Assembly: GCF_012849555.1 (NCBI RefSeq)
Contig: NZ_CP051685.1
Span: 6,076,001-6,140,000 of the forward strand
Direction of reading: 5' to 3'
From: Massilia forsythiae
Lineage (GTDB): Bacteria; Pseudomonadota; Gammaproteobacteria; Burkholderiales; Burkholderiaceae_D
DNA: 64,000 nt
Shown: in pieces, positions 16,354 through 26,975 of the stretch
Layout of the letters: each line of letters starts with the position of its first letter
How positions within the stretch are numbered: position 1 is the stretch's first letter
The notes under the pieces: model-generated
What the model saw: only the letters and a program-made list of their open reading frames with translations
The model's database searches: none
What the model was told of the DNA's origin: nothing
Made by a program: the position numbers and the translations under genes

Positions 16354-17274
16354 TCATGCCTTGCGTCGAATGTCGCCATGGTGCCACCACAGGGTCGGGT
16401 TGTTGTCGGCCAGGTGGCGCAGCAGGTCCCACACCAGCTTCACCCGGCGCAGCCGGTACAGGTCGGCCGGCGCCGCCAGCCAAAACGAGCGCTCGGCGTG
16501 GAAGCCCGGCAGTACCGGCACCAGGCGGCCGTCGTCCGGCACCGCGTACGGCGGCGCCATCATGAGACCCATCCCCAGCGCCGCCGCCTCGATCTGCGCC
16601 GCCATGCCGGAACAGCACAGGCGGCGCCGCGGCGTGAAACCGAGCTCATTCAGGTAGGACAGTTCGCGGCTGGCCAGGCGGTCCTGCACATAGTCGACGA
16701 AGTCGTGGCGCTCGAGGTCGGCCTGGGCCAGGATCGGCGCATGCGTGGCCAGGTAGTCCGGCGCCGCGTACAGGTAGAAGCGGAACGCCGCCAGCCGCGT
16801 GACCATGTAGCGTCCGGTCGAGGGCGGGTCCAGCATCACCCCGAGGTCGGCCTCGCGGTTGGCCAGGTTGGCGAAGCGCGGCAGCGCCAGCAGGTCGATC
16901 GACAGGTCGGGGTGGTCGGCGAACAACCTGGCCAGCAGCGCCACCACCACGCGCGTGCCGAACACTTCCGGCACGCCCAGGCGCACCACGCCGTGCGCCG
17001 CCACCTCGGCCCCGCCCAGCTGCTCGGCGGCGGCCAGCGCCGCGCCTTCCATCACCTCCGCGTGCGGCAGCAGCGCCTGCCCCATCTCGGTCAATTCGTA
17101 GCCTTCGCGCGAGCGGTCGAACAGCGTGCTGCCGAGCTGGTGCTCGAGACGGTCGATGCGGCGCGCCACGGTGGTGTGCTCGACGTCGAGCCGGCGCGAA
17201 GCGCCCGACAGCGTGCCGGCGCGTGCCAATTCCAGGAAGAAACGCAGGTCGGTCCACTCCGGCAGGGTATTCAT
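16354..17274 (-). CDS. LysR-family transcriptional regulator
   Basis: 306 residues. The N-terminal winged helix-turn-helix is FFLELARAGTLSGASRRLDV followed by EHTTVARRIDRLEHQLGSTL. The co-inducer domain is of the usual length. I start at the ATG at 17274 (MNTLPEWTDLRFF), the standard LysR N-terminus; the reading frame stays open upstream but without conservation. It is divergent from the TonB-dependent receptor gene with 272 bases between them, where two identical-arm dyads (17306 and 17426) may be its operators. That arrangement suggests it controls the receptor/hydrolase/ABC-importer genes and itself. Confidence 0.95.
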   Translation of the reverse strand: MNTLPEWTDLRFFLELARAGTLSGASRRLDVEHTTVARRIDRLEHQLGSTLFDRSREGYELTEMGQALLPHAEVMEGAALAAAEQLGGAEVAAHGVVRLGVPEVFGTRVVVALLARLFADHPDLSIDLLALPRFANLANREADLGVMLDPPSTGRYMVTRLAAFRFYLYAAPDYLATHAPILAQADLERHDFVDYVQDRLASRELSYLNELGFTPRRRLCCSGMAAQIEAAALGMGLMMAPPYAVPDDGRLVPVLPGFHAERSFWLAAPADLYRLRRVKLVWDLLRHLADNNPTLWWHHGDIRRKA

Positions 17275-17305
17275 CGGCGGGCTGTTCCTTGTCAAGGTGA
17301 CATAT

Positions 17306-17321
17306 TGTGCGCTCGTGCACA
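17306..17321. promoter_or_regulatory. Operator-like dyad 1, TGTGC-N6-GCACA
   Basis: TGTGCGCTCGTGCACA lies 32 bases upstream of the LysR gene. The same arms and spacing recur exactly 120 bases away at 17426. Candidate LysR-type binding site. Confidence 0.45.
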
Positions 17322-17425
17322 TTCTCGCTGCAACGTTTTCGGGCTCGGCCTTGCGCGCGCACCCCAACCTGGCGCAGCGCCTGCCGGACCCCGTTATTTT
17401 GCCGCACCGGCCCGGTGCAATTGGC

Positions 17426-17441
17426 TGTGCATTCATGCACA
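17426..17441. promoter_or_regulatory. Operator-like dyad 2, TGTGC-N6-GCACA
   Basis: TGTGCATTCATGCACA is a dyad with 7-base perfect arms around TC, 105 bases before the receptor gene start. Confidence 0.45.
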
Positions 17442-17546
17442 CCCTGTGGGCGCGGTGATGTCTTTCCAGTCGATCCCAACCGAGGCACACTGCGGTGCGT
17501 GCGACCTGTAGCTCACGGCATGACACCACAAGACATTCAGGAGACA

Positions 17547-19883
17547 ATGATGCGTGTTAGCAAGAAGTCGGATTCGCCCGTTCACCAATCGGCCAGGCGC
17601 AGGCTGCCAGGGAGCAGGCTGCTCGGGCGCTCGGCCGCCGCCCTGCTGGTGCTGACCGGCGCCGGCGCCGGCGTGGGTGTCCATGCACAGGAAGGCGGCG
17701 GCATCAGCAGCGCCGTCGCCGCGCCCGAGGGCAATATCGAGAAGGTGGTCGTCACCGCGCGCCGGCGCCAGGAAACGCTGCAGGACGTGCCGGTCTCGGT
17801 CACCGCCTTCACCGCCGACCAGCTGTCCAAGCAAGGCATCCCGGACGTGGTGGCGCTCACCACCACGCTGCCGAATACCACCCTGAAGGCGTCGCGCGCC
17901 ACCAACTCGACATTGACCGCCTTCATCCGCGGCGTCGGTCAGGCCGACCCGCTGGCCGGCTTCGAGTCCGGCGTCGGCATTTACCTGGACGACATCTACC
18001 TGGCGCGCCCGCAGGGCGCCGTGGCCGACATCTACGACGTCGAGCGCATCGAGGTGCTGCGCGGCCCGCAAGGCACGCTGTACGGACGCAACACCATCGG
18101 CGGCGCGGTCAAGTACGTGACCCGCAAGCTGGCGCCGCAGACCGACATCCGCCTGAAAGGCACGCTCGGCAACTACAAGGAACGCGACGGCGTGCTCACC
18201 GCCAGCACGCCGGTGAACGAGCAGCTGCGCATCGGCGGCACGGTCGCCCGCTTCAAGCACGACGGCTATGGCCGCAACCTGTTCACCGGCGCGCCCAACT
18301 ACGACAAGGACCTGACGGCGGGCCGCCTGTCGGCCGAATGGCAGGCCACGCCCGACCTGTGGGTGCGCGTGGCCGGCGACATCACCCAGGACGACTCGCA
18401 TCCGAAGAACGGTCACCGCCTGATCGTCGGCCGCACGGGCGGCGCACCGATCCTGTCCAACGTCTACGACACGCAAGCCGACCTGGCCAGGGCGCTCGGG
18501 CACGAACAGGAAGTGCGCCAGCACGGCGTGTCCGCCACGGTCGAATGGACCGTGAATCCGGAGCTGACCTTCAAGTCGATCACCGCGCAGCGCCAGGACA
18601 AGTCGTATGCGCCGATCGACTTCGATTCGCTGCCGGTGGTCGACTTCGAGGTGCCGGCCCTGTACACCAACCGCCAGTTCAGCCAGGAATTCAACCTGAC
18701 CTATACCGGTCCCAAGATCCAGGGTACGGCCGGGGTCTACTACATCGACGCCAACGCCTACAACAAGTTCGACACCATCCTGGCCGGCGCCGTGCCGACC
18801 AGCACCTTTACCAGCGGCGACGTCGACACCCGCGCCTGGGCCGTGTATGCCGACGGCAGCTACAACCTCACCGACGTCCTGCAGCTGTCGCTGGGCGGAC
18901 GCTACACCGTCGACAAGCGCGAGGCCGACGTCTACCGCCAGATCTATCTGGGCCTGAACGGCACGCCCGAGATGGGCAACCCGGGCGCAATCCTGTTCCG
19001 CACCGACACCGACCTGCGCAATGGCCAGTTGCAGCGCGAAGACAAGAAGTTCACGCCGCGCATCGCCCTGAACTGGAAGGCCACGCCGGACCAGAACGTC
19101 TATGCCTCGTACGCCAAGGGCTTCAAGGGCGGCGGCTTCGACCCGCGCCTGAACGTGGTCGGCACCCGCATCACGCTGGCCCAGGCGCGCGCCGGCTACA
19201 GCCCGGAAACCATCGGTACCTACGAGCTGGGCCTGAAGTCCTCGTTCAACGGCGGGCTCGTCACCACCAACACCGCCCTGTTCTACAGCGACTACAAGGA
19301 CGTGCAGATTCCGGGTTCGGTGGCGATCGACACCAACGGCGACGGCCGCGACGACAGCTTCGCCGGCCTGACCACGAATGCCGGCAAGGCCACCATCAAG
19401 GGTGTCGAATTCGAGGCGGTGGCCCATCTCACCAGGAACTTCAGCCTGTCCGGCATGGTCAGCTACATCGACGCCAAGTACGACGAATACATCGTGGCCG
19501 GCGTCAACGTGGCCAACCAGCGCGTGTTCCAGAACACGCCGCGCAACGCGGCCAACCTGCGCGCCACCTACGATGTGGCGCTGCCGCTGGGCGGCGTCGA
19601 TGGCAGCCTGACGCTGATCGGCGCGGCATCCTACCGCGGCGCCACCAACCAGTTCGAGACCGTGTCGATCCTGGACCAGGCGTCGTACAAGCTATATGAC
19701 GCCAGCGTGATCTGGACCCGCAAGGACGGCAAGATCCGCGCCGGCCTGCACGGCAAGAACCTGTCGGACAAGCACTACAAGACCGCCGGCTACCTGTTCC
19801 CGACGCTGGGCAACGAAGGCACGCTGACGGCGTTCTACGGTGCGCCGCGCACGGTGCAGGCAACGGTCGAGTACCGCTTCTGA
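17547..19883 (+). CDS. TonB-dependent outer-membrane receptor
   Basis: 778 residues. A long signal peptide with hydrophobic core AAALLVLTGAGAGVG is followed by a TonB-box region EKVVVTARRRQETLQDVPVS. The plug domain contains IRGVGQADPLAGFESGVGIY, YLDDIYLARPQG and VEVLRGPQGTLYGRNTIGG-like motifs (IEVLRGPQGTLYGRNTIGG). A 22-strand barrel follows, ending in the aromatic ATVEYRF. This subtype (ETLQDVPVSVTAF, YLDDIYLARP) is the one abundant in sphingomonads and other degraders of complex organics rather than a clear siderophore type. Start at ATG 17547 with CAGGAGAC upstream; a second ATG follows at 17550. It heads the hydrolase/ABC-importer genes. Confidence 0.94.
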   Translation: MMRVSKKSDSPVHQSARRRLPGSRLLGRSAAALLVLTGAGAGVGVHAQEGGGISSAVAAPEGNIEKVVVTARRRQETLQDVPVSVTAFTADQLSKQGIPDVVALTTTLPNTTLKASRATNSTLTAFIRGVGQADPLAGFESGVGIYLDDIYLARPQGAVADIYDVERIEVLRGPQGTLYGRNTIGGAVKYVTRKLAPQTDIRLKGTLGNYKERDGVLTASTPVNEQLRIGGTVARFKHDGYGRNLFTGAPNYDKDLTAGRLSAEWQATPDLWVRVAGDITQDDSHPKNGHRLIVGRTGGAPILSNVYDTQADLARALGHEQEVRQHGVSATVEWTVNPELTFKSITAQRQDKSYAPIDFDSLPVVDFEVPALYTNRQFSQEFNLTYTGPKIQGTAGVYYIDANAYNKFDTILAGAVPTSTFTSGDVDTRAWAVYADGSYNLTDVLQLSLGGRYTVDKREADVYRQIYLGLNGTPEMGNPGAILFRTDTDLRNGQLQREDKKFTPRIALNWKATPDQNVYASYAKGFKGGGFDPRLNVVGTRITLAQARAGYSPETIGTYELGLKSSFNGGLVTTNTALFYSDYKDVQIPGSVAIDTNGDGRDDSFAGLTTNAGKATIKGVEFEAVAHLTRNFSLSGMVSYIDAKYDEYIVAGVNVANQRVFQNTPRNAANLRATYDVALPLGGVDGSLTLIGAASYRGATNQFETVSILDQASYKLYDASVIWTRKDGKIRAGLHGKNLSDKHYKTAGYLFPTLGNEGTLTAFYGAPRTVQATVEYRF

Positions 19884-20011
19884 GCGCCGCGTCCACACCC
19901 CGCGCCATGGCGGCCGCCGTGCAGCCGCCCGGCGCCGCCGACGTCCCCGGCGCCCCTGGATGCCGGCGCAAGGATTCACCCCAACGATTCGAACCACAGG
20001 ACCTGCCGAGC

Positions 20012-20977
20012 GTGCCTCACTTCACACCGATCCATTACAGCAGCGAAGACGGCCTGACGCTGTATGCGCGGGATTATGCGCCGGTCGACACCGCGGCGGT
20101 CGATACCGCGGCGGTCGACACCGCGGCGGTCGACACCGCGGCGGCCGGCGCATCGATGGCAGGCACGCCGGCTGCCGCCTCGCCCGCGGCGCGCCTGCCC
20201 GTCATCTGCATCCACGGACTGACCCGCAATTGCGCCGACTTCGATGAATTCGCCCCCCTCGTCGCCGGCCTGGGCCGGCGCGTGCTGGCGCTCGACGTGC
20301 GCGGCCGCGGCCACTCGGCGCGCGACCCGAATCCGGACAACTACAACCCGCAGGTGTACGCCGCCGACGTCGAGCGCCTGATGGCCGGGCTCGGCATCGC
20401 GCGCGCCATCTTCGTCGGCACCTCGATGGGCGGCCTGATCACGATGACGCTGGCGACGCGCGACATCGGCCTGATCGCCGCCGCGGTGCTGAACGACATC
20501 GGCCCGGTGGTATCCGACAAGGGCCTGGCGCGCATCGCCGGCTATACCGGCAAGCCGGTGCGGCCGGCGTCGTGGGACGATGCCGCGCGCTACGTCAGCG
20601 ACATCAACCGCTGCGCCTTTCCGCACAATCCGGATGCGGAATGGGACAAATGGGCGCGCCGCGCCTTCGAGCCGGATGCCGGCGGGCGCCTGGCGCCGCG
20701 CTACGACCCGCACATCGCCATCGCCCTGCAAAGCGGCAAGCTCAGGCCGACCTCGCTGCAGAGCCGGATGGCCTTCCGCCGGCTGGCGCGCGAACGGCCG
20801 CTGCTGCTGGTGCGCGGCGCACTGTCCGACCTGCTGGAAGCGCGGCAGGCCGAATGGATGCGGCGCGCGGCGCCGTCGATGCGCTACGTGGAGGTGCCGG
20901 ACGTGGGCCACGCGCCGATGCTGACCGAGCCGGCCGCGCTGGCGGCGGTCACCGCGTTCCTGGCCGGCCTGCCCTGA
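20012..20977 (+). CDS. Alpha/beta hydrolase
   Basis: About 321 residues from the GTG at 20012 (VPHFTPIHYSSEDGL), which has CAGGAC about 11 bases upstream; the frame is open further 5'. Oxyanion region ICIHGLTRNCADFDEF, nucleophile elbow GTSMGG (Ser near residue 138), acid in LVRGALSDLLE and catalytic His in VPDVGHAPML. It is a soluble alpha/beta hydrolase with no signal peptide, so it should act in the cytoplasm after uptake. An ester, lactone or C-C bond hydrolase is possible; the substrate is unknown. Residues 25-45 are a four-fold VDTAA repeat encoded by a 15-base tandem repeat just after the first beta-strand. It lies between the receptor and the ABC importer genes. Confidence 0.9.
   Translation: MPHFTPIHYSSEDGLTLYARDYAPVDTAAVDTAAVDTAAVDTAAAGASMAGTPAAASPAARLPVICIHGLTRNCADFDEFAPLVAGLGRRVLALDVRGRGHSARDPNPDNYNPQVYAADVERLMAGLGIARAIFVGTSMGGLITMTLATRDIGLIAAAVLNDIGPVVSDKGLARIAGYTGKPVRPASWDDAARYVSDINRCAFPHNPDAEWDKWARRAFEPDAGGRLAPRYDPHIAIALQSGKLRPTSLQSRMAFRRLARERPLLLVRGALSDLLEARQAEWMRRAAPSMRYVEVPDVGHAPMLTEPAALAAVTAFLAGLP
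20084..20143. repeat. 15-bp tandem repeat, four copies, in the hydrolase gene
   Basis: The unit GTCGACACCGCGGCG occurs four times in a row with a single C/T difference in copy 2. It encodes VDTAA four times. Confidence 0.95.
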
Positions 20978-21007
20978 GACTACGACAAGTATCGAAAAGG
21001 AGACGGA

Positions 21008-22204
21008 ATGACACGCTTCAAACTCTTGCCGGCGATGCTGTCGGCCGCTTTTGCCGCCGGCATCGCGTATGGCGGCAATGCCGGCGCCGCGCCCGACCTG
21101 AAGATCGCCCTGATCGCCGGCAAGACCGGCATCCTGGAATCGTATGCGCGCGAGACCGAGACCGGTTTCATGATGGGCCTGGAATACCTGACCGGCGGCA
21201 AGATGGAAATCAACGGCCGCAAGATCAAGGTGATCGTCAAGGACGACCAGGGCAAGCCCGACCTCGGCCGCACCCTGCTGGCCGAAGCCTACGACGACAA
21301 GGTCGACATCGCGGTCGGCACGACCTCGTCCGGCTCGGCGCTGGCGATGCTGCCGGTGGCCAGGGAATACAGGAAGGTGCTGGTGGTCGAGCCGGCCGTG
21401 GCCGACGAGATCACCGGCGCCAGGTGGAACAGGTACGTGTTCCGCACCGCGCGCAATTCGATGCAGGACGCGCTGGCGGCGGCATCCACGCTCAAGAGCG
21501 GCAGCGTCGCCTTCCTGGCCCAGGACTATGCCTTCGGGCGCGACGCCGTCAAGGCCGGCAAGGAAGCGCTGGCGGCGACCGGCAGCAAGGCGAAAGTGGT
21601 GCACGAGGAATACGCGCCCGTCGCCGCCACCGACTTCACCGCACCGACCCAGCGCCTGTTCGACGCGCTCAAGGACAAGCCGCAGCCGCGCATCCTGGCC
21701 ATCGCCTGGGCCGGACCGAACCCGATGAACAAGATCGCCGACATGAAGCCGGAACGCTTCGGCATCGCGCTGGCGCCGGGCGGCAACCTGCTGCCGGTGA
21801 TGAAGACCTGGAAGGCGTATGCCGGTACCGAAGGCACGATCTATTACTACTATGGCTTCCCCAGGAACAAGATGAACGACTGGCTGGTCGCCGAGCACAT
21901 GAAGCGCTTCAAGGCACCCCCCGACATGTTCACCGCGGGCGGCATGAGCGCGGCCGGCGCGGTGTTCGCGGCGCTGCAGAAGGTGCCGTCGGCCGACAGC
22001 GAGCAACTGGTGGCGGCGATGGAAGGCATGAGCTTCGAGAGCCCGAAAGGCACGCTGAGCTTCCGCCGCGAAGACCACCAGGCGCTGCAGCCGATGTACC
22101 ATTTCCGCATCAGGAAGGAGCAGAAGAACGAGTGGGACCTGCTGGAACTGGTGCGCGAAATCCCGGCCGCGGAATTGCCGCTGCCGGTCAGGAACAAGCG
22201 CTGA
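21008..22204 (+). CDS. ABC importer substrate-binding protein, branched-chain amino acid (HAAT) type
   Basis: 398 residues, periplasmic, with signal peptide MTRFKLLPAMLSAAFAAGIA and cleavage near NAGA-APDLK. The type I periplasmic-binding fold shows LKIALIAGKTG at the start, the ligand-site region GTTSSGSALAMLPVAREY and SVAFLAQDYAFGRDAVKAG. Such proteins bind amino acids but also aromatic acids, amides or urea. It lies 30 bases after the hydrolase, with AAAAGGAGACGG as ribosome site, and its stop overlaps the start of the first ATPase (TGATG). Confidence 0.94.
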   Translation: MTRFKLLPAMLSAAFAAGIAYGGNAGAAPDLKIALIAGKTGILESYARETETGFMMGLEYLTGGKMEINGRKIKVIVKDDQGKPDLGRTLLAEAYDDKVDIAVGTTSSGSALAMLPVAREYRKVLVVEPAVADEITGARWNRYVFRTARNSMQDALAAASTLKSGSVAFLAQDYAFGRDAVKAGKEALAATGSKAKVVHEEYAPVAATDFTAPTQRLFDALKDKPQPRILAIAWAGPNPMNKIADMKPERFGIALAPGGNLLPVMKTWKAYAGTEGTIYYYYGFPRNKMNDWLVAEHMKRFKAPPDMFTAGGMSAAGAVFAALQKVPSADSEQLVAAMEGMSFESPKGTLSFRREDHQALQPMYHFRIRKEQKNEWDLLELVREIPAAELPLPVRNKR

Positions 22205-23025
22205 TGGCGCCCGACCAGCAAGCCGCCGCGCCGGCAGCCGCGCCGTCCACCGGGCCGGCGCCGGCGCTCGCGCCTGCGTTGGCGACCGAGGGCCTGACGG
22301 TGCGCTTCGGCGGCCACGTGGCGGTCGACGCGGTGACGGCGGCCTTCTATCCCGGTACCCTGACCGTCATCGTGGGACCGAACGGCGCCGGCAAGACCAC
22401 CTATTTCAACCTGGTGTCCGGCCAGTTGGCGGCCAGCGCCGGACGGGTGTTCGTGAACGGCCGCGACGTTAGCCGGCTGGGCGCGGCCCGGCGCACCCGC
22501 CTCGGCATCGGCCGCGCGTTCCAGCTGACCAACCTGTTCCCGCACCTGAGCGTGCTGGAAAACGTGCGCCTGGCGGTGCAGAGCCGGGCCGGCATCGGCA
22601 TGCACATGCTGTCGCTGTGCTCCAGCCACCGCGAGGTCATCGCGCGCGCCGAGCACTATCTCGAGCGCGTCGCCATGGCAGCCAAGCGCGATGCCTGGGT
22701 CGGCACGCTGTCGCACGGCGACCAGCGCAAGCTGGAGGTGGCGATCCTGCTGGCGCTGGAACCCGACATCCTGATGTTCGACGAGCCGACCGCCGGCATG
22801 AGCGTGGACGAAGTGCCGGTGGTGCTCGACCTGATCCACCAGGTCAAGGCGGCGCGCAACAGGACCGTGCTGCTGGTCGAGCACAAGATGGACGTGGTGC
22901 GCGCACTGGCCGACCGCATCGTGGTGCTGCACAACGGCGCCCTGGTGGCGGACGGCAAGCCGGCCGAGGTGATGCGATCGACCATCGTGCAGGAGGCCTA
23001 TCTTGGCGCAACCGAACCCGCGTGA
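22204..23025 (+). CDS. ABC importer ATPase, LivG type
   Basis: 273 residues. After an Ala/Pro-rich N-terminus of about 28 residues the ATPase begins (LTVRFGGHVAVDAV). Walker A is GPNGAGKTT, the signature is LSHGDQRKLE (LSxGxQ variant) and Walker B is ILMFDEPTAGMS; the H-loop is LLVEHKMD. The start overlaps the stop of the binding-protein gene by one base. With LivF it powers the two permeases. Confidence 0.95.
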   Translation: MAPDQQAAAPAAAPSTGPAPALAPALATEGLTVRFGGHVAVDAVTAAFYPGTLTVIVGPNGAGKTTYFNLVSGQLAASAGRVFVNGRDVSRLGAARRTRLGIGRAFQLTNLFPHLSVLENVRLAVQSRAGIGMHMLSLCSSHREVIARAEHYLERVAMAAKRDAWVGTLSHGDQRKLEVAILLALEPDILMFDEPTAGMSVDEVPVVLDLIHQVKAARNRTVLLVEHKMDVVRALADRIVVLHNGALVADGKPAEVMRSTIVQEAYLGATEPA

Positions 23026-23773
23026 AGCGTCGAATACGACGGCATCCATGGGCGAGCCGATCCTGACGCTGTCCGGCGTGCACACCCACATCGGCCAGTA
23101 CCACATCCTGCAGGGCGTGGACCTGGCCGTGCCGCGCGGGGCCCTAGCCGTGCTGCTGGGCCGCAACGGCGCCGGCAAGACCACCACGCTGCGCACCGTG
23201 ATGGGATTGTGGCGCGCCAGCGCCGGGACCATCGTGTTCGACGGCCGCGACATCACCGGGATGGCCACGCCCGACATCGCGCGCGCCGGCATCGCCTACG
23301 TCCCGGAAAGCATGGCCGTGTTTTCCGAACTGACGGTGCGCGAGAACCTGGTGCTGGCAGCCAGGAACGGGCTGCTCGACAGCGCGCGCGTCGACTGGAT
23401 CTGCGGTTTCTTCCCGGCCCTGCGCAAGTTCTGGCACAGCGCGGCCGGCAATTTGTCCGGCGGCCAGAAGCAGATGGTGGCGATCGCGCGCGCCGTCGTC
23501 GAACCGCGGCAACTGCTGCTGGTGGACGAGCCGACCAAGGGCCTGGCGCCGGCCATCGTGGCCAGCCTGATGGCGGCCTTCCTCGACCTCAAGGACACCA
23601 GCACCACGATCCTGCTGGTCGAACAGAACGTCAACTTCGTGCGCACGCTGGGCGACAGCGTCGGCGTGATGGACGACGGCCGCGTCGTGCATGCCGGCGC
23701 CATGCACGACCTGGCCGGCGACGCGGCGCTGCAGCAGCGCCTGCTGGGCCTGGCGCTGGACGCGCACCAGTGA
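23003..23773 (+). CDS. ABC importer ATPase, LivF type (TTG start)
   Basis: 256 residues. Walker A GRNGAGKTT, signature LSGGQKQMVAIARAVV, Walker B LLLVDEPTKGLAP, H-loop LLVEQNVNF. The start I favour is a TTG at 23003, because a perfect AGGAGG sits six bases before it, inside the end of the LivG gene; the genes then overlap by 23 bases. The first ATG in frame is at 23048 and has no visible ribosome site, but would still leave a nearly complete ATPase. Confidence 0.95.
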   Translation: MAQPNPREASNTTASMGEPILTLSGVHTHIGQYHILQGVDLAVPRGALAVLLGRNGAGKTTTLRTVMGLWRASAGTIVFDGRDITGMATPDIARAGIAYVPESMAVFSELTVRENLVLAARNGLLDSARVDWICGFFPALRKFWHSAAGNLSGGQKQMVAIARAVVEPRQLLLVDEPTKGLAPAIVASLMAAFLDLKDTSTTILLVEQNVNFVRTLGDSVGVMDDGRVVHAGAMHDLAGDAALQQRLLGLALDAHQ

Positions 23774-23811
23774 AAACGCATGCATGCCGCACCGGACAAG
23801 GAAACCATGAC

Positions 23812-24867
23812 GTGAACGCCACCTACCCGATCGACCCGGCCGTAGAGCCGGTCCCACCCGCCCCGGCCGCGCCAGCGGACGCGCCGCTGCCGGCGCCGCG
23901 GCGCGACCTCCTGCCGCTGCTGCTGGCGCCGGCGCTGGCGCTGGCCATGCTCCCCTTCGTCAGCCTGCCGACCTGGATCACGCTGACCGTGGCCGGCCTG
24001 GCCATGGGGATGATGATCTTCATCATGGCCAGCGGACTGACGCTGGTGTTCGGGCTGATGAACGTGCTGAATTTCGGCCACGGCGCTTTCGTTTCCGTGG
24101 GCGCCTTTACCGCCACCACCGTGCTGCTGCCGATGCGCGGCTGGCTGGAAGCCGATTCGCTGGCGGCCAACCTGGGCGTGCTGGGCTTGGCGGTGGCGCT
24201 GGCGATGCTGGTCACCGCCCTGCTCGGCTGGGCGTTCGAGCGCGTCGTCATCATGCCGGTGTACGGCCAGCACCTGAAGCAGATCCTGGTCACGATGGGC
24301 GGCATGATCGTCTCGGAACAGCTGATCAACCTGATCTGGGGTGCCGAGCAGATCGCGCTGCCGATGCCGGCGGCGCTGCGCGGCGCCATCTTCCTGGGCG
24401 ACGCCGCGATCGAGAAATACCGGCTGCTCGCGGTCGCGGTCGGGCTGGTGGTATTCGCCGCCATGTTCTTGGTGCTGAACCGCACCCGCATCGGCCTCCT
24501 GATCCGCGCCGGCGTCGAGAACGGCGAGATGGTCGAGGCGCTGGGCTACCGCATCCGCCGCCTGTTCGTCGGCGTGTTCGCGGCCGGTTCGGCGCTGGCC
24601 GGGCTGGGCGGCGTGCTGTGGGGCTTGTACAAGGAAAACCTGGTGGCGCACATGGGCAGCGAGATCATGGTGATGGTGTTCATCGTGGTCATCATCGGCG
24701 GCCTCGGCTCGGTCGGCGGCTGCTTCATCGGCGCCCTCCTGATGGCGCTGGTGGCCAACTACGCCGCCTTCCTGGCGCCCAAGGTCGCGCTGGTGTCGAA
24801 CCTGATGCTGATGGTCGCGATCCTGCTGTGGCGGCCGGCCGGCCTGTATGCGAAAGCGAGGCACTGA
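23812..24867 (+). CDS. ABC importer permease, LivH type
   Basis: 351 residues, inner membrane, about eight hydrophobic segments. The family motif LVFGLMNVLNFGHGAFVSVG lies near residue 80, and FIVVIIGGLGSVGGCFIGAL near the C-terminus. The GTG start at 23812 is chosen for AAGGA nine bases upstream; another GTG at 23770 overlaps the LivF stop. The first 45 residues are Pro/Ala-rich. Confidence 0.93.
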   Translation: MNATYPIDPAVEPVPPAPAAPADAPLPAPRRDLLPLLLAPALALAMLPFVSLPTWITLTVAGLAMGMMIFIMASGLTLVFGLMNVLNFGHGAFVSVGAFTATTVLLPMRGWLEADSLAANLGVLGLAVALAMLVTALLGWAFERVVIMPVYGQHLKQILVTMGGMIVSEQLINLIWGAEQIALPMPAALRGAIFLGDAAIEKYRLLAVAVGLVVFAAMFLVLNRTRIGLLIRAGVENGEMVEALGYRIRRLFVGVFAAGSALAGLGGVLWGLYKENLVAHMGSEIMVMVFIVVIIGGLGSVGGCFIGALLMALVANYAAFLAPKVALVSNLMLMVAILLWRPAGLYAKARH

Positions 24868-24868
24868 G

Positions 24869-25942
24869 ATGCTGGCGAAGCTCCTGTCGAACGACCTGCC
24901 GCGCAGCCGCCTGCTGACCGGCCTGCTGGTCGCGATCGCGCTCGGCCTGTTGCTGGCGCCCTTCCTGTTCAGCGGCGCGCGTCCGCTCAACACCGCGGCC
25001 ACCGTCTGCATCTACGTCGTGCTGGTGGCGTCATACGACCTGTTGCTGGGCTATACGGGCATCGTCTCGTTCGCCCACACGATGTTCTACGGCATCGGTG
25101 CCTACGGCATCGGCATCGCCCTGGCGCGCGTCGACGAACCGACCTGGGGCGCCGCGCTGGCCGGCCTGGGGCTGGCGCTGGCGCTGACGGTGCTGCTCGC
25201 CTTTCTCATCGGGCTGTTCGCGCTGCGCGTGCGCGCCATCTTCTACGCCATGATCACGCTGGCGGTGGCGGCCTCGTTCTCGGTGCTGGCGTCGCAGCTG
25301 TCCGACCTGACGGGCGGGGAGGACGGGCGCACCTTCGGCGTGCCGGCGCTGCTGTCGCCCGGCTTCACCCTGTTCGAGAGCGACGTGCTGGGCCGCGCCG
25401 TCGATGGCCGCCTGATCACCTATTACCTCGTGCTGGCCGGCTGCGCCCTGCTGTTCCTGCTGCTGCTGCGCCTGGTGAACTCGCCGTTCGGACGGGTGCT
25501 GCAGGCGATCCGCGAGAACGAATTCCGCGCCGAGGCGCTCGGCTACCGCACCGTGGTCTACCGCATCTGGGCCAACGTACTGGCCGCCGTGGTGGCGGCG
25601 CTGGCCGGCGCCCTGATGGCGCTGTGGCTGCGCTACGTCGGCCCCAAGACCATGCTCGGCTTCGAGGTGATGACGGACATCCTCTTGATCGTCGTGATCG
25701 GCGGCATGGGGACGATGTACGGCGCGGTGGTCGGCGCCGCCCTGTTCATCCTGGCGCAGAACTACCTGAAAACGCTGATGGGCCAGGTATCGGAGGCGCT
25801 GGCGGGCGTGCCGCCGCTGGCGGCGGTGCTGCATCCGGACCGCTGGATGCTGTGGCTGGGCGTGCTGTTCATCCTGTCCATCTACTTCTTCCCGATCGGG
25901 ATCGTCGGCAAGCTGCGCATGCGGCGTTACCGCAAGCGCTGA
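24869..25942 (+). CDS. ABC importer permease, LivM type
   Basis: 357 residues from ATG 24869 (MLAKLLSNDLPRSR), one base after the LivH stop. Ten or so membrane segments. Family motifs: DLLLGYTGIVSFAHTMFYGI, LRVRAIFYAMITLAVA, RVLQAIRENEFRAEALGYR and the C-terminal MGTMYGAVVGAA. It completes the five-component importer; a hairpin follows 11 bases after the stop. Confidence 0.94.
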   Translation: MLAKLLSNDLPRSRLLTGLLVAIALGLLLAPFLFSGARPLNTAATVCIYVVLVASYDLLLGYTGIVSFAHTMFYGIGAYGIGIALARVDEPTWGAALAGLGLALALTVLLAFLIGLFALRVRAIFYAMITLAVAASFSVLASQLSDLTGGEDGRTFGVPALLSPGFTLFESDVLGRAVDGRLITYYLVLAGCALLFLLLLRLVNSPFGRVLQAIRENEFRAEALGYRTVVYRIWANVLAAVVAALAGALMALWLRYVGPKTMLGFEVMTDILLIVVIGGMGTMYGAVVGAALFILAQNYLKTLMGQVSEALAGVPPLAAVLHPDRWMLWLGVLFILSIYFFPIGIVGKLRMRRYRKR

Positions 25943-26306: not shown

Positions 26307-26321
26307 ATGAAAGGGCTTTCC
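26290..26321. repeat. 16-bp tandem duplication across a start codon
   Basis: CATGAAAGGGCTTTCC occurs twice, back to back (26290-26305, 26306-26321). The second copy holds the ATG of the PEP-CTERM gene; the AAAGGG of the first copy is then its ribosome site. Confidence 0.9.
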
Positions 26322-26975
26322 GCGAAATCCATGTGCGCGACGGCGGTCGTTTCGCTGGCGGCGCTGGGCTCCGGCACTGCCGGCGCCGCCGGGGTCGAAG
26401 TACTGAATGAAGGGTTCGGCAATCTCGGCGGCCTGGATGGATGGACCCAGCTCAACGCCAGTACGCCACCCGGCACGGGCTGGTTCCAGGGCAACCCGGG
26501 CATCTTCGGCGCCCAGTCCGGCGCCGCCGATGCCTACGCGGCCGCCAACTACCTCGGCGCCGCCAACGGCAGCGGCAGCGTCGACAACTGGCTGATCACC
26601 CCCGTCCTCGACCTGACCGGCACCACGGTACTGAGCTTCTTCACCCGCCACGATACGGAATCGAACTTCAACGACCTGCTCGAAGTCCGTTTTTCGTCCG
26701 GTTCCGGCAGCGATCCGTCCGGTTTCTCCACCCTGCTCGGCAGCGTCGGGCGCGCCACCGCCTATCCGGACGACTGGACCGCGTTCACCGCCAGCATCGG
26801 CACCGAGGGCGCCGGCCGCTTCGCGTTCCGCTATGTCGGCCAGGCCGATACCTTGAACTATGTGGGCCTGGACACGGTCTCGGTGGTAACGGCTGTCCCC
26901 GAACCGGCTGCCTGGATGATGCTGGCCATGGGCCTGGGCGGCTTCGGGCTGCTGCGCCGCGCATCGCGTCAATGA
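26307..26975 (+). CDS. PEP-CTERM sorted exoprotein, choice-of-anchor J type
   Basis: 222 residues. Signal peptide MKGLSAKSMCATAVVSLAAL, then a beta-sandwich with EGFGNLGGLDGWTQLN and DNWLITPVLDLTGTTVLSFF, the pattern of the 'choice-of-anchor J' domain. The C-terminus is a complete PEP-CTERM signal: VPEPAAWMMLAMGLGGFGLL followed by RRASRQ. It should be cut and released or anchored by exosortase A (XrtA), encoded elsewhere. The start is set by AAAGGG eight bases before the ATG. Two short genes for a secreted protein and a metalloprotease follow closely. Confidence 0.93.
   Translation: MKGLSAKSMCATAVVSLAALGSGTAGAAGVEVLNEGFGNLGGLDGWTQLNASTPPGTGWFQGNPGIFGAQSGAADAYAAANYLGAANGSGSVDNWLITPVLDLTGTTVLSFFTRHDTESNFNDLLEVRFSSGSGSDPSGFSTLLGSVGRATAYPDDWTAFTASIGTEGAGRFAFRYVGQADTLNYVGLDTVSVVTAVPEPAAWMMLAMGLGGFGLLRRASRQ

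Follow-up and report, generated by a model that had tools for sequence, protein, structure and literature searches.

The operon considered here lies in a 64-kb window, meaning the whole stretch of DNA from the soil bacterium Massilia forsythiae that was analyzed (6.08 to 6.14 Mb on contig 1 of a 6.37-Mb genome), and combines a TonB-dependent receptor, an alpha/beta hydrolase, and an ATP-binding cassette (ABC) importer with a divergent LysR-type regulator. An outer membrane protein, an ABC importer, a hydrolase, and a LysR regulator are likewise found together in the cyanuric acid uptake-and-hydrolysis cluster atzSTUVW/atzD. The LivJ/LivK-LivHMGF system of Escherichia coli has the same set of importer components, but LivJ is only ~20% identical to the binding protein of the window and differs from it in the pocket residues. 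Two HAAT-type aromatic-acid binders of Rhodopseudomonas palustris, RPA0668 and RPA0985, share the fold and the importer type but are only 21 to 24% identical; the part of the source available describes the identification of such binders by ligand screens and mentions no linked receptor or hydrolase (PMC3223731). The closest relative with a solved structure is RPA4397 (PDB 3n0x and 3nnd), the binding protein of another R. palustris importer, with 60% identity along almost the entire chain (482 bits; Z score, 51.2). Its ligand was not found in the literature searched, and the name RPA4397 is absent from the main text of PMC3223731.

Among hydrolases, the portions available of PMC3430594 and PMC11767486 list PhaY2 (H16_A1335) of Ralstonia eutropha as a 3-hydroxybutyrate oligomer hydrolase and label its counterpart in Azohydromonas an alpha/beta hydrolase. 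The likeness of PhaY2 to the window hydrolase, compared by description only, lies in that annotation. We know of no importer linked to PhaY2. The closest solved relative of the window hydrolase is 3bwx (174 bits), an alpha/beta hydrolase presumably from Novosphingobium, whose entry states no substrate. The available parts of PMC3734047, PMC11332829, PMC10374108, and PMC12542648 contained nothing decisive.

Results

Receptor, hydrolase, and importer form a conserved unit

The receptor, the importer, and the hydrolase form one genuine unit that is conserved in the Massilia/Telluria group. Of eight hydrolase relatives with a name, five come from Massilia or Telluria. Family models placed all seven same-strand genes and the divergent LysR gene at the locus where the original prediction, made from the window alone, had seen them. 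The start that it gave, 17274, is that of the LysR start codon, whereas the first forward gene begins at 17547. The genes are as follows.

16384..17274, minus strand: divergent LysR-type regulator (PF00126 and PF03466)
17547..19883, plus strand: TonB-dependent outer membrane receptor, allele A (PF00593 and PF07715)
19907..20977, plus strand: alpha/beta hydrolase (PF00561), start codon uncertain
21008..22204, plus strand: periplasmic substrate-binding protein (Peripla_BP_6), relative of RPA4397/3n0x, with the predicted length of 398 amino acids
22204..23025, plus strand: LivG-type ABC ATPase (PF00005 and PF12399)
23003..23773, plus strand: LivF-type ABC ATPase (PF00005), with a TTG start or an ATG start at 23048
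23812..24867, plus strand: LivH-type permease (PF02653), GTG start
24848..25942, plus strand: LivM-type permease (PF02653)

Since the forward genes are spaced by 23 to 38 bp or overlap, all seven likely form a single transcription unit. The importer has the HAAT (branched-chain-type) composition, namely, a Peripla_BP_6 protein, two BPD_transp_2 permeases, and two ABC ATPases together.

When the binding protein was used as the query, it was found at E ≤ 1e-40 in 37 of the 61 genomes in the relatives set, comprising all 37 of its own genus (window genome counted) and none of the 24 from other genera. It was also found in 69 of 195 genomes of the family at E ≤ 1e-80 and in 22 of 398 genomes of the phylum, its own included, at E ≤ 1e-60. 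Identities split into a class 1 (~72 to 90%) and a class 2 (51 to 61%), with 67 class-1 genomes in the relatives-set and family searches combined. Neighborhoods were fetched for part of the matches and, once duplicates had been removed, amounted to 34 distinct loci of class 1 and 56 of class 2; linkage was counted in loci with enough flanking sequence, namely, 32 of class 1 (window included) and 49 of class 2.

In all 32 class-1 loci, a TonB receptor gene lies no more than 9 kb upstream, and the LivG, LivF, LivH, and LivM set is complete. The hydrolase and the LysR gene are each present in 31 of them, L143 being without both. Receptor, hydrolase, and importer thus co-occur in 31/32 loci, as the prediction required of relatives, and the recurrence of the gene order in related genera makes the set more than a chance arrangement. 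The receptor is not always adjacent: it lies several kilobases upstream behind other genes in L077, L144, and L145 and on the far side of LysR in L072, L078, L079, and L147. The segment between receptor and LysR in L077 (12817-16746) encodes an MbnB/TglH/ChrH-type enzyme of ribosomally synthesized and posttranslationally modified peptides and a large LuxR-type regulator; members of its intervening gene clusters also occur in L144 and L145. Directly downstream of the window operon, and probably outside it, is a gene for a PEP-CTERM protein (26307-26975), relatives of which recur downstream in many Massilia-type loci.

Hydrolases of three clades adjoin one importer family

A tree of 104 hydrolase relatives was built by a quick method, with long branches flagged and with matches of <100 bits or <200 residues, plus L103, left out. 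The window-type hydrolases form one group (Shimodaira-Hasegawa-like approximate likelihood ratio test, 100) of 29 receptor- and importer-linked and 3 importer-linked members, which adjoins the receptor-linked hydrolases of L158 and L108. Importer-linked hydrolases from other bacteria form a separate group of 22 (21 labeled importer-linked), and a third, very distant set comprises 7 importer-linked rows. Because one importer family adjoins hydrolases of three clades, its cargo would appear to be hydrolyzed, and we regard this as the strongest argument for cargo hydrolysis. It strengthens the original proposal of a substrate taken up intact and cut inside; the qualification of that substrate as large or hydrophobic found no support.

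The predicted catalytic residues are well conserved in the alignment: Ser173 in 104/104 rows, His335 in 103/104 (one gap), and Asp308 in 92/104, the last being missing from every one of the 7 third-clade rows. The window protein accordingly fits an alpha/beta hydrolase with catalytic residues, a criterion that is not specific to PhaY2-like oligomer hydrolases. It was not assignable to the 3-oxoadipate enol-lactonase PcaD (TIGR02427, 49.6 bits versus a cut-off of 255.85). Conservation begins at about residue 36 to 39, and a tandem repeat inserts VDTAA units upstream of the core domain.

20078..20144, plus strand: in-frame 15-bp tandem repeat, 4.5 copies, within the hydrolase gene

The genome encodes a second hydrolase that is 41% identical to the window hydrolase (E = 3.3e-40). 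The gene of this paralogue (4262966-4263778 on contig 1) and a 3-hydroxybutyrate dehydrogenase gene (TIGR01963, 368.3 bits; cut-off, 307.05) point away from each other (L176:6888-8782). The same pair occurs in L178, L180, and L183, i.e., in 4 of the 21 loci L176 to L196, all 4 falling among the 10 loci of its own order (L176 to L185). The four paired hydrolases all belong to a group of 12, which the tree places as the sister of the importer-linked group of 22 (class 2). Four PF10503 matches are also present in the genome; among three stretches scanned, only L198 passed the polyhydroxyalkanoate depolymerase model (253.1 bits; cut-off, 150), and its gene is unlinked to the operon.

Receptor and hydrolase also pair without the importer

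Outside both classes, 43 further hydrolase loci were inspected, 22 closer and 21 more distant. A related receptor lies upstream of the hydrolase, with the importer missing, in 8 of the 22 closer loci (L108 to L110 and L157 to L175), directly so in L108, L158, L167 to L169, L172, and L173 and with one ligase gene between in L109; L167 to L169 come from one genus and are hence not independent. The pairing was found in 0 of the 21 more distant loci (L176 to L196). In L172 and L173, receptor, hydrolase, and a major facilitator superfamily carrier stand in a row, and the inner membrane importer thus appears to be exchangeable. Two older modules are visible in the window operon, which joins a receptor-hydrolase unit to an importer that elsewhere pairs with its own hydrolases.

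The receptor slot holds two alleles that are swapped in place

The window receptor has the plug and TonB_dep_Rec barrel of the broad TonB-dependent family. Its model (mean predicted local distance difference test [pLDDT] score, 73.6) resembles siderophore, cobalamin, heme, ferric citrate, and pyrroloquinoline quinone receptors with Z scores of 27.5 to 33.5, which do not indicate a ligand. The TonB-dependent siderophore receptor label was rejected (TIGR01783, 167.7 bits versus a cut-off of 223.5).

The 31 class-1 receptors compared split at a branch with a support of 100 into group A, which has 22 rows including that of the window, and group B, which has 9 rows, 8 of them distinct; B receptors are 50 to 53% identical to the window receptor. 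On the binding-protein tree, the A/B label requires 6 changes, at least 4 of them forced by starred branches, and the labels are weakly clustered, with 29 to 34 of 500 shuffles reaching as few changes. Between L140 and L065, DNA identity is 89 to 92% in LysR, 54 to 77% in the receptor, 79 to 88% in the hydrolase, and 93 to 96% in the binding-protein gene. The corresponding values for L067 and L107 are 90 to 94%, 58 to 80%, 76 to 90%, and 95 to 98%, whereas the control pair L140-L141 is 90 to 98% identical throughout the receptor. A B query at E ≤ 1e-120 had exactly one match in each of 23/23 same-genus genomes, B-like in 3 (76 to 100%) and A-like in 20 (53 to 57%). The receptor slot holds two mutually exclusive alleles, ~52% identical to each other and swapped in place between near-identical operons.

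The plug stretch from 112 to 185 is 80 to 85% identical across alleles, and the barrel is 38 to 63% identical (14 A and 4 B rows). We infer that the alleles take up the same ligand through an altered surface selected by phages or bacteriocins.

A doubled palindrome flanks the LysR gene

The motif TGTGC-N6-GCACA occurs twice in the window, against 0.19 sites expected, and both sites fall in the divergent region.

17306..17321, no strand: palindrome TGTGC-N6-GCACA, putative LysR operator 1
17426..17441, no strand: palindrome TGTGC-N6-GCACA, putative LysR operator 2, form TGTGCANNNNTGCACA

At least one palindrome is present in 32/32 LysR-flanking regions examined and two in 27/32 (L071 and L104 being one sequence), and the natural reading of the doubled palindrome is that of a putative LysR operator. 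The form TGTGCANNNNTGCACA and the first palindrome with its flanks each occur once in the genome, within this intergenic region, such that a regulon search for substrate clues with these two forms found neither elsewhere in the genome.

The binding protein departs from amino acid binders

The binding-protein model (mean pLDDT, 88.6) has RPA4397/3n0x as its nearest fold, and amino acid and urea binders follow in the ranking from a Z score of ~40 down; fold similarity of this kind is no proof of which ligand the protein would bind. The label of a Leu/Ile/Val binding protein was rejected (NF011933, 53.2 bits versus a cut-off of 477), as was that of the urea importer protein UrtA (TIGR03407, 54.4 bits versus 492.75). 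LivJ residues Thr102, Tyr202, and Glu226, which we take to hold the amino acid, align to V131, P237, and L261 in a ~20% identity alignment. Across the binding-protein alignment, the Thr and Glu equivalents are mostly Val and Ile/Leu, and the Ser of what we take to be the LivJ carboxylate site is kept in 51/51 proteins. By its model score, far below the cut-off, and by the replacement of the aligned residues that bind the amino group, the protein differs from ordinary Leu/Ile/Val binders, as the original prediction required.

The remaining possibility of an ordinary branched-chain amino acid importer, with receptor and hydrolase as unrelated neighbors, agrees with the Pfam families and the fold of the Leu/Ile/Val importers but is highly improbable given this score, the replaced residues, and the conserved association with hydrolases that belong to different clades.

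Neighbors of the class-2 importers

The window-type receptor, LysR, and upstream hydrolase were found in 0/49 class-2 loci at the thresholds used; LivGFHM is present in 46/49, and an alpha/beta hydrolase of another clade lies downstream in 26/49. Acyl coenzyme A (acyl-CoA) ligase relatives (≥35% identity) occur in 10 class-2 loci (L082, L083, L111, L113, L114, L116, L118, L124, L135, and L138), and L083 carries FadJ-like and thiolase genes besides its ligase. In annotated plasmid records, alphaproteobacterial importer loci include ligase, MaoC, and enoyl-CoA hydratase genes; one annotated plasmid has beta-oxidation genes and no hydrolase. A FadX-like CoA transferase gene lies just upstream in L120 and L122. 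The order in L112 (Mariluticola) is sigma-54 regulator, 3-hydroxybutyrate dehydrogenase (369.8 bits; cut-off, 307), binding protein, importer, and hydrolase. Housekeeping genes (topoisomerase III, DprA, Ada-type, and ferrochelatase) border many class-2 loci and give no substrate clue; overall, most annotated neighbors have roles in housekeeping, beta-oxidation, CoA transfer, or 3-hydroxybutyrate metabolism. From this context, acyl or hydroxyacyl esters are better candidate substrates than amino acids or peptides.

Discussion

We propose that LysR would control a three-compartment uptake-and-hydrolysis operon. The TonB receptor would carry a scarce, carboxylate-bearing ester across the outer membrane, and the binding protein would pass it to the LivGFHM-type importer. 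A cytoplasmic Ser-His-Asp hydrolase would then cleave the ester to acids that may enter beta-oxidation or 3-hydroxybutyrate metabolism. As long as no particular substrate is specified, we consider it very probable that the operon serves the uptake and hydrolysis of an ester-type compound. The linked acyl-CoA and 3-hydroxybutyrate enzymes, together with the importer and receptor-hydrolase modules, suggest a carboxylate-bearing ester, with short 3-hydroxybutyrate (hydroxyalkanoate) oligomers from polyester breakdown as the leading candidate. The pairing of the paralogue with a dehydrogenase gene and the Ser kept at the LivJ carboxylate site speak for this reading as well. The whole proposal including this substrate, which we take from gene context, is tentative and falls somewhat short of an even chance. 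The genes and their linkage, the operator-like repeats, the hydrolase residues, and the enzymes linked in relatives are direct observations, whereas from sequence and context we infer which way the compound is moved, that it is cut in the cytoplasm, that LysR regulates the operon, and, most of all, what the substrate is. A fuller account is speculative and rather unlikely to hold in every part: an energized two-membrane route for 3-hydroxybutyrate oligomers would have arisen when a receptor-hydrolase unit and an importer of oligomers were combined, with the receptor alone swapping between long-lived alleles, plausibly driven by phages or bacteriocins.

Several findings weigh against 3-hydroxybutyrate oligomers as the substrate. 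The window operon contains no 3-hydroxybutyrate dehydrogenase, ligase, or depolymerase gene, and a 1.5-kb screen beside the class-1 hydrolases gave the dehydrogenase label for none. The window hydrolase falls outside the clade of its paralogue, and their substrates may differ. Among class-2 loci, a dehydrogenase that exceeds the TIGR cut-off lies inside the cluster in L112 only; the L099 candidate passed one model (270.9 bits; cut-off, 258), failed TIGR01963 (263.3 versus 307.05), and lies 4.7 kb off with no importer genes beside it. The FadX match (400 bits) is below its cut-off of 750, and the search found no downstream hydrolase in 23/49 class-2 loci. The LivJ residue comparison was made at 20% identity, and the nearest structures with a named ligand are R. 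palustris 4-hydroxybenzoate and vanillate binders (Z scores of 40.5 to 42.8; 22 to 28% identity). Near the binding protein, L130 encodes an HpaI-family aldolase, which is related to aromatic-pathway enzymes (343.8 bits, below the cut-off of 368.8). Finally, the literature searched gave no support for the proposed system.

The last structural and genomic points bear on the best-surviving alternative, in which the importer takes hydroxybenzoate- or cinnamate-like (lignin-type) esters and the hydrolase frees the aromatic acid. CoA ligases and sigma-54 regulators are found in aromatic pathways too. The named-ligand structures and the L130 aldolase, even below its family cut-off, favor such esters, as do the R. 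palustris aromatic binders known through ligand screens in the available part of PMC3223731. Against this stand the annotated neighbors listed above and the lack of any ring-cleaving or ring-hydroxylating gene among the neighbors annotated by family models (most singletons being unannotated) or in six plasmid records. We consider aromatic esters a rather unlikely substrate, albeit one that the binding relatives keep in view. Overall, the original interpretation is partly supported.

Slightly less likely again is another acyl ester, such as a fatty-acyl, choline, or carnitine ester, a lactone, or a signal molecule. In L109, receptor, acyl-CoA ligase, and hydrolase adjoin a betaine/carnitine/choline transporter family carrier and a choline dehydrogenase, and the ligase, MaoC, and enoyl-CoA hydratase genes of the alphaproteobacterial loci would also suit such a substrate; the choline context is confined to this one locus. 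In L158, an autoinducer-binding regulator stands beside the hydrolase, but its family is defined by position next to HchA, which is present there too, and we abandoned an acyl-homoserine-lactone interpretation of this locus.

Should hydroxyalkanoate oligomers prove to be the substrate, for the uptake of which as polyester fragments no transporter was described in the literature searched, the operon would explain how bacteria living on polyester fragments take them up whole. Regardless of what it takes up, the operon clearly exemplifies modular assembly and the exchange, in place, of surface-receptor alleles between species.

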